Assembly: GCA_003225315.1 (NCBI GenBank)
Contig: QHZD01000018.1
Span: 432,299 to 496,298 of the forward strand
DNA from: Acidobacteriota bacterium
GTDB taxonomy: Bacteria > Acidobacteriota > Terriglobia > Acidiferrales > UBA7541
Direction of reading: 5' to 3'
Length of the DNA: 64,000 bases
Shown here: one piece after another, positions 3,594 through 7,631 of the stretch
Position numbering within the stretch: position 1 is the first letter of the stretch
How the letters are laid out: each line of letters opens with the position of its first letter
Made by a program: the position numbers and the translations under genes
The notes under the pieces: generated by a model
The model's database searches: none
Told to the model about the DNA's origin: nothing
The model's input: the letters and a program-made list of their open reading frames with translations, nothing else

Positions 3594-3857
3594 GTGCAAA
3601 CGAAGCTCAAGGACGACGGTCGCAAATGGCTGTGGGGGTTCCTGGCAGTCATCATGATGTCCAAACTTTACTTCGTTCAGGAACTGCTCGCAGTGTTCGC
3701 CCTCTTCTCGCTGGGCTTTGCAGCGATCGCCTTGGTGGTCGCAAGCCTCTACACACTTCAACATTGCTGGGAACTGGCCGTGGTGCGCCTTGCAGATTTC
3801 CGCCGGCCGGTCATGAACGTGGCCCCAGTCACCCGCGAGAATCAGAAAGCCGCCTAA
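3594..3857 (+). CDS. Small two-helix membrane protein (paralogue of 59222..59521)
   Basis: 87 aa, GTG start after acaGGAGGctgcc. Aligns with MKTKDKSRKWMWTFLAVLVSLQMYFVWELLAVFVLFAVGFAAIAF of the 59-kb gene. Confidence 0.7.
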   Translation: MQTKLKDDGRKWLWGFLAVIMMSKLYFVQELLAVFALFSLGFAAIALVVASLYTLQHCWELAVVRLADFRRPVMNVAPVTRENQKAA

Positions 3858-3911
3858 GAACCGAGCCCGGCTTTGGCGGGCCCAAACCCAAAGATTAAGG
3901 AAACGCTTGTT

Positions 3912-3940
3912 CTGACATCTCCCCGATCCCGCGCTATACT
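3912..3940 (+). promoter_or_regulatory. Sigma70-like promoter CTGACA-N17-TATACT
   Basis: -35 CTGACA 3912-3917, 17-nt spacer, -10 TATACT 3935-3940. Confidence 0.6.
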
Positions 3941-3998
3941 CGGACTCACTCGACACTCTTGTCGACATCGGCGTTCCTGCCGAGAAGGAGGTGATCCA

Positions 3999-4019
3999 GT
4001 GAGGTACGGTTTACGTTGA
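3999..4019 (+). CDS. Candidate 6-aa micro-ORF, (M)RYGLR
   Basis: GTG AGG TAC GGT TTA CGT TGA, 7 nt after AAGGAGG. Very short, so coding status is uncertain. Confidence 0.3.
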   Translation: MRYGLR

Positions 4020-4027
4020 AGTAGTAA

Positions 4028-4066
4028 GGGAGGCGCTTGTGAGTTGCCGAGCGCCTCTCTTTTTTG
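4028..4066 (+). terminator. Rho-independent terminator
   Basis: GGGAGGCGCT ... AGCGCCTCTC stem (one G-U) followed by a T-rich tract (cttttttg). Confidence 0.8.
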
Positions 4067-4239
4067 TCCCGCCTGCCTGAATTCCCCGTGATGCGAGTCT
4101 GGCGCACACTTCCACTTAGTAAATGCTTGTAATGAGCTGCAGAAAAACTGTCTTTGCCAGCCACGCAACAATTCCTCTATTGCTACTGTCGTGTCGAGTA
4201 GAATCTCACCGTCGTACGTTTGGCGGGAAGGTGCAAATT

Positions 4240-5115
4240 ATGCCCCAGAGCGTCGCAGTTGCTATCGTCCATGGGATTGGCAGGCAGAAAGAAGACTTTG
4301 CTTCAGCAATAATTCAACAATTGCGCATGCGTGTGAGGCAGCAGCTCGGAGAGGACCCTCAAGAAGCGCCGCGCTTCTTCTTCCAGCCAGTCTATTGGGC
4401 TCCGGTGCTGCAAAACGAAGAGGATGAGCTCTGGAGCCGCCTCCGCAAAGGGGGAAGTTTGGGCTGGACCGGGTTGCGCGAGTTCATGGAGGATTTCGCT
4501 GCCGACGCCATCGCCTATCAACCCATCGAAGGCAGGCGCGATGCTTATGACAGGGTACATGCTGTGTTCGCGGATTCCCTGCGGCGTCTGGCGCAGCAGG
4601 CTGGTCCTCATGCCCCTCTATGTGTAATCTCCCACAGCCTCGGCACAGTAATTGCCTGCAATTTCTTCTATGACCTGCAGACGCACTCTTCTGAGAAGCC
4701 ATTGATTGCGCCAACTGTGCGCCAAAAACTGGGCGATGCTCCGCTCGCTTGTGGGGAGACGTTGACGCTGTTCTATACCATGGGCAGTCCCGTCGCGCTA
4801 TGGAGCCTGCGCTACGAAAACTTCGGTAAACCCATACACGTGCCATCACCTAAGTTGCACAGCCACTACCCGATTCTTGCAGGCGAATGGGTGAATTTCT
4901 ATGGCAAAGCGGATGTCATTGGCTATCCGCTGAAGGAACTCAACGCCGATTACCGTGTGGCGGTGACTTCCGATTGTCCGGTCCTTGTTGGGGGCCCGCT
5001 TGCATTCTGGAATCCGCTCTCGCACATGGCGTATTTTGGAGATACGGACGTCTTAGGGCCAATCGCTGAAGGCCTGGTTGGCGTCTGGCAGACCATCAAT
5101 GCAGCGCAGCGGTAA
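4240..5115 (+). CDS. Alpha/beta-hydrolase-like serine esterase/lipase
   Basis: VAIVHGIGRQ near the N-terminus and nucleophile-elbow-like VISHSLGTV. Start chosen at MPQSV within the 330-aa ORF. Confidence 0.65.
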   Translation: MPQSVAVAIVHGIGRQKEDFASAIIQQLRMRVRQQLGEDPQEAPRFFFQPVYWAPVLQNEEDELWSRLRKGGSLGWTGLREFMEDFAADAIAYQPIEGRRDAYDRVHAVFADSLRRLAQQAGPHAPLCVISHSLGTVIACNFFYDLQTHSSEKPLIAPTVRQKLGDAPLACGETLTLFYTMGSPVALWSLRYENFGKPIHVPSPKLHSHYPILAGEWVNFYGKADVIGYPLKELNADYRVAVTSDCPVLVGGPLAFWNPLSHMAYFGDTDVLGPIAEGLVGVWQTINAAQR

Positions 5116-7554: not shown

Positions 7555-7631
7555 TGGTGGGGCTGGGGAGATTCGAACTCCCGACAAACGGTTTAGGAAA
7601 CTGCTGCTCTATCCATCTGAGCTACAGCCCC
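7555..7631 (-). tRNA. tRNA-Arg (anticodon CCT), CCA encoded
   Basis: GGGGCTG/CAGCCCC acceptor, GCTC/GAGC D-stem, TTCCTAA anticodon loop, GGGAG-TTCGAAT-CTCCC T-arm, encoded CCA. Confidence 0.93.

Follow-up and report, generated by a model that had tools for sequence, protein, structure and literature searches.

A candidate small RNA with a full complement of the 16S rRNA 3′ tail and a six-codon frame is conserved in a family of soil Acidobacteria

In the window, the 64,000-nt stretch of an acidobacterial contig analyzed here, a small transcription unit lies complete on the plus strand at positions 3912–4066. It comprises a promoter, two hairpins, the segment AAGGAGGTGATCCAG, a six-codon ORF and a terminator. 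The RNA family is absent from Rfam, and its most conserved part is the full complement of the anti-Shine-Dalgarno (anti-SD) tail of 16S rRNA. Conserved are the stand-alone gene, its structure, the near-invariant anti-SD complement and a reading frame without a conserved peptide. From these features we infer transcription, capture of 30S subunits in vivo and a regulatory effect. Our preferred reading, which we hold with about even confidence, is that the unit encodes a structured minigene RNA that would capture 30S subunits and act as a decoy throttling translation.

Results

All elements of the unit described in the original prediction were found base for base. The sigma-70-type promoter CTGACA-N17-TATACT (3912–3940, +) has its hexamers at 3912–3917 and 3935–3940, and the transcript would start near 3946–3948. 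Hairpin 1 (TCGACA-CTCT-TGTCGA, 3950–3965, +) is seen in the two-hairpin subtype only, and hairpin 2 (TCGGC-GTTCCT-GCCGA, 3968–3983, +) is present in all subtypes, 0–1 nt upstream of the SD. The 13-mer AAGGAGGTGATCC (3985–3997, +) is complementary to the whole single-stranded 3′ tail of the 16S rRNA and extends to the 15 nt of AAGGAGGTGATCCAG with positions 3998–3999. It is followed by the ORF GTG AGG TAC GGT TTA CGT TGA (3999–4019, +), inside which lies an invariant SD-like TGAGG (4000–4004, +). The intrinsic terminator (4026–4066, +) has a stem region at 4026–4061, with GAGGCGC/GCGCCTC pairing at 4030–4036 and 4051–4057, and a T-tract at 4060–4065. The predicted RNA would be about 115–120 nt long. 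On the 5′ side of the terminator loop (4033–4043) most members read TTGTGA or GTGTGA, which exceeds the needs of an ordinary terminator. A tRNA gene at 7558–7631 on the minus strand is the sole Rfam gathering match in the window.

Taken alone, the promoter (1 match, 0.9 expected) and the terminator (2 matches, 2.6 expected) are at chance level; it is their conservation that makes them credible. In the two-hairpin and the one-hairpin forms, almost every homologue has a TATAAT or TATACT hexamer at a set spacing from the SD (42–45 nt and 24–26 nt upstream, respectively), which would place the transcript start at the first hairpin in either form. The group with a TAGACA-type promoter (L061/L063/L081/L082) is more variable. 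The analysis across related genomes that the original prediction had proposed showed that hairpin 2 and the terminator covary: seven pairs carry double changes, in 28 cells as against 4.1 in shuffles and at most 7 in slid controls. Hairpin 2 is paired in 99.3% of cells, with double changes at two pairs, and the terminator stem in 98.8%. Hairpin 1 in A2 has compensatory changes at columns 5/16 and 7/14. The relatives do not show the pattern that the original prediction had named as its refutation, a normal SD in front of a longer ORF and nothing more: they keep the hairpin and the terminator as well as the 13-nt complement and the six-codon frame. This conservation across homologues supports the view that the unit is compact and stand-alone, that it holds a segment for binding the anti-SD and that the micro-ORF is real.

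In a DNA search of 61 genomes, 20 (the window's own among them) had homologues, all of the same genus, and a covariance model placed the RNA in 22 of the 36 genomes of that genus. With a model built from 48 members the RNA was detected in 48 of 89 genomes of the family, about half being without a detectable copy. Of 299 genomes of the class, 39 were positive, every one of them from this family, and the model found none among the sampled class genomes outside it. According to named records the family is Ca. Acidiferrales, Acidobacteria group 2 (soil Acidobacteria), including Ca. Acidiferrum. Nearly all genomes surveyed were MAGs, and the home-made covariance models had short calibrations. Two weak matches in the phylum (G339/G582, E 8e-5 and 8e-4) share AAGGAGGTGATTC and have neither hairpin nor terminator; they were not accepted. 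In genus g12, AAGGAGGTGATCCTCTTG was attributed to chance, since similarity there extends over all of the surrounding sequence, as it would in protein-coding DNA. The core pattern was absent from IMG/VR viral contigs.

The gene is single-copy except in G033 (two copies) and G311 (an intact copy plus another that is divided between two contig ends). Four subtypes were distinguished (L058–L099, L108, L122, L129, L132): two-hairpin GTG, one-hairpin GTG, one-hairpin CTG, and CTG with the TAGACA-type promoter. They cut across genera, which together with the two copies in G033 and G311 suggests old paralogues or transfer.

Neighboring genes are common to close relatives only, and no downstream gene is conserved across the homologues. 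This bears on the idea, raised in the original prediction, of a leader-peptide attenuator of the downstream gene, an esterase at 4240. A micro-ORF followed by an intrinsic terminator would suit such a role, but the esterase is present in 3 of 36 genus members, the RNA in 22 of 36, and G028 has them on different contigs. Since the neighbors differ nearly everywhere, we regard the RNA as stand-alone and not as an esterase leader; the attenuator is largely refuted and very improbable.

The 3′ tail of the 16S rRNA in the same genome is CTGGATCACCTCCTTT. The 15-nt perfect complement that the original prediction had pointed out is exact against this gene. Within the 4.98 Mb genome the 15-mer occurs at this locus and in the complement of the 16S gene only (∼0.009 expected by chance). 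Sixteen AAGGAGGT sites have an NTG at SD-like spacing, of which the window locus alone has the 13-nt complement, the next longest being 10 nt. Predicted duplexes with the 16S tail have energies of −23.1 (13 nt) and −27.5 kcal/mol (15 nt) vs. −10.1 kcal/mol for AAGGAGG, a strong SD. For TGAGG the predicted value is −7.0 kcal/mol. Opening the SD in the folded RNA is predicted to cost ∼5 kcal/mol on average, and RNAfold pairs three SD bases within a small internal hairpin, which counts against ribosome capture.

The 13-mer shows one change on the tree of the 48 members (GTGGTCC, L075), and in the split copy of G311 it reads AGGGAGG. Both changes are A-to-G opposite U, so that G⋅U pairing is kept, though two changes are few. 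Like the strong predicted duplex, they argue for pairing with the ribosome. Alternatively, the purine-rich segment might target CU-rich sequences in mRNAs or in other sRNAs and not the ribosome. The hairpins and the terminator are the anatomy of a stand-alone sRNA and TGAGGTA could serve as a seed, but an exact 13-nt complement of the 16S tail with fixed places for start and stop is unexpected for an mRNA seed, and we judge this reading improbable. A CsrA sponge was dismissed with just one universal GGA, and so was a minus-strand 16S mimic, the promoter and T-tract being on the plus strand only.

Downstream of the 13-mer, all 48 members have [G/C]TG AGG, four further codons and a stop without any indels; the region from stop to terminator is variable in length. 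Codon changes were counted by parsimony on a tree built from the RNA itself. This test of the frame was post hoc, as the pattern was seen first, and the independent stop-codon changes are few. Codon 2 is AGG in 48/48, wobble base included, with zero changes, and codon 3 is TAY (Tyr) in 45/48, with seven changes of which four are synonymous. The stop codons (44 TGA, 3 TAA, 1 TAG) underwent four changes, all stop-to-stop. Codons 4–6 have 31 changes, 27 of them nonsynonymous, and the encoded peptides are diverse after MRY (MRYGLR, MRYTNN, MRYWKL, MRYSTN). Thus, the frame appears to be selected and the peptide not. An alternative frame in the CTG subtypes, GTG ATC CCT GAG GTA… (like MIPEVFDELI), was rejected: its GTG falls within the SD, it ends early in two members, and in the GTG subtypes it meets a stop at codon 4.

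These counts bear on two further readings. In the first, the RNA would be a small mRNA with a functional hexapeptide of MRY plus three residues. The conserved frame and the near-constant Met-Arg-Tyr, with most codon 3 changes synonymous, are what one would expect of it. However, codons 4–6 drift freely, it is the nucleotides of AGG that are conserved, and little peptide is expected from the CTG starts found in 12 of the 48 members, so that this reading is, if anything, slightly less probable than binding to mRNAs. In the second, the nearest rival to ribosome capture, the strong SD would drive repeated translation of a CreT-like minigene, so that tRNA-Arg(CCU) and ribosomes would be sequestered and growth slowed, the peptide being irrelevant. 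This plan is shared by published CreT RNAs: a strong SD, an AUG or GUG start and a 4–6-codon ORF with rare Arg or Ile codons and a UGA stop precede a stem-loop, and the peptide plays no part in their action (PMC8501985, PMC10097628). AGG is invariant although synonymous codons exist, and AGG and TTA are among the rarest codons in the flanking genes (sixth rarest at 4.2 and second rarest at 2.3 per 1000, respectively). On the other hand, there is a single AGG and not two consecutive rare codons, conservation of TTA is limited to type A, neither an antitoxin nor a link to CRISPR-Cas was found, and AGG may be retained for its place in the SD-like TGAGG. By analogy such a minigene is conceivable, but we consider it unlikely. 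The CTG starts weaken the readings that call for efficient translation, and 30S capture fits them better, though CTG is a poor start codon and counts against capture as well.

A longer RNA of the same design, widespread in other Acidobacteria, was found by a pattern scan of the class and then a model of the family f6. Each f6 genome (loci L238–L257, L265–L267) has one AAGGAGGTGATCCATG within an RNA with its own promoter, hairpins and terminator and no conserved gene behind it. The ORF has 13–15 codons (e.g., MSIESNLSEGAEA), with indels of 6 nt only. The f6 model also matches loci in f4, f8, f11, and f52 (L284–L295), which have AAGGAGGTGGTCC and ORFs ending in EVAEA, EVAAA or EVADA. The parts of the long form are a TTGAC promoter, AAGGAGGTG[GA]TCC, an ORF ending in (R/S)E(V/G)AEA or similar and a AAATCCCAACAGCTTACCG motif; an internal GTGAGGTGGCTGAGGC is complementary to a downstream CCGCCTCAGGC. 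The long form looks like a translated mini-ORF RNA. The f6 model has no matches in the family of the window, and the long and short forms are mutually exclusive in this sample. In another acidobacterial family, L195/L196 have AAGGAGGTGATTCAGTGGATATAGATAAACATGG… at ∼1501–1592, followed by a 14-codon ORF (MDIDKHGMAEVASF) with strong hairpins; the stretch is conserved in two genomes.

Two f11 loci, L287 and L290, pass the gathering threshold of RF02471 Ms_IGR-5 (49.5 and 49.3 vs. 45 bits), and this actinobacterial family therefore extends to the Acidobacteria. Its consensus (AAGGAGGUGGUCC … GUGAGGUGGCUG), listed as a noncoding sRNA, has a 13-nt anti-SD complement followed by a short ORF, LIDLWTCEVAAR. 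In M. abscessus and M. smegmatis, ribosome-protected reads have been reported for homologues of Ms_IGR-5 (PMC4974804), and in Streptomyces RNA-seq supports such homologues as transcripts (PMC8079986, PMC8780764). When the covariance models of the window RNA and the long form were compared, the SD segment alone aligned (13.1 bits; ≤18.4 bits). Common descent with the long form or Ms_IGR-5 is not supported, as the models align little beyond the SD; judging from the shared plan, the window RNA may at most work like them.

Discussion

We propose that the 5′ end of the RNA is shielded by its one or two hairpins, which also keep the SD open, so that the 13–15 nt segment could pair with the complete single-stranded 16S 3′ tail, well past a normal SD. 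The NTG start 5–6 nt after AAGGAGGT, an ideal spacing, would then set the captured 30S on the six-codon frame. The rare second codon AGG would come next, and the internal GAGGT would be able to re-pair with the anti-SD. Counted from the T of GAGGT, the distance from TGAGG is 5 nt to codon 5 and 8 nt to codon 6, a geometry in which a ribosome near the stop could re-pair. The bound ribosome would idle through initiation, a few codons, termination and rebinding, and the RNA as a decoy would lower or buffer free 30S subunits.

In favor of ribosome capture are the family-wide conservation without synteny, the covariation of hairpin 2 and the terminator, the frame that stays fixed despite free codons 4–6, and the recurrence of RNAs of the same plan in the long acidobacterial form, with two members passing Ms_IGR-5. 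Against it, about half of the family genomes are without a detectable copy, and a very long SD may slow initiation escape without being a decoy. No paper describing a comparable anti-SD decoy sRNA was found.

The window RNA is a new, minimal form of a little-understood RNA design, linked by this design to the poorly understood sRNAs Ms_IGR-5 and CC2171. The window RNA, the long acidobacterial form, Ms_IGR-5 and CC2171 could possibly be one functional class over several phyla, ribosome-capture RNAs that set global translation capacity, but we hold this only tentatively and think it rather doubtful. If true, such RNAs would pair with the whole 16S tail and hold 30S subunits on a mini-ORF, as a translational counterpart of 6S RNA on RNA polymerase. 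Because Ms_IGR-5 and CC2171 occur in lab-tractable bacteria, the question whether bacteria make 30S-titrating RNAs becomes directly testable, with the window RNA as a minimal 115-nt model.

An Rfam search of positions 3840–4240 gave zero matches at E ≤ 10 and none at gathering. The window RNA thus matches no described acidobacterial Rfam motif, including Acido-1, which the original prediction had named as an example to search against. It is also below the gathering thresholds of Ms_IGR-5 (45 bits; unmatched at E ≤ 10) and RF01867 CC2171 (75 bits). With CreT of the type VIII toxin-antitoxin system CreTA it shares the strong SD, the start codon, the rare-codon mini-ORF and the downstream stem-loop, but it has a single AGG, no CRISPR-Cas or CreA partner, a longer anti-SD complement that is its most conserved part, and a CTG start in a quarter of the members. 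Cas1 is absent from the genome of the window and from most carriers of the RNA; it is present in 16/89 family genomes with no tie to the RNA. Membership in CreTA, by location at CRISPR-Cas or CreA repression, was rejected, as Cas1 does not track the RNA. The consensus of the Caulobacter sRNA CC2171 has GAAAGGAGGUGAUCCAGUG, which is nearly the GAGAAGGAGGUGAUCCAGUG of the window RNA, but the remaining sequence and structure differ. The plan of Ms_IGR-5 is found in the window as AAGGAGGTGATCC (3985–3997) and GTGAGGT (3999–4005) in a short ORF. The long forms differ in their further helices, the CAACAGCUUACCG-type motif, another terminator and an ORF of 13–15 codons in the Acidobacteria and 12 in the Ms_IGR-5 consensus, as against six codons in about 115 nt. 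Like the window RNA, Ms_IGR-5 and its long acidobacterial relatives are stand-alone sRNAs with a promoter and a terminator, and they share with it the anti-SD complement AAGGAGGUG(G/A)UCC, a start codon and a short ORF with an internal GUGAGGU.
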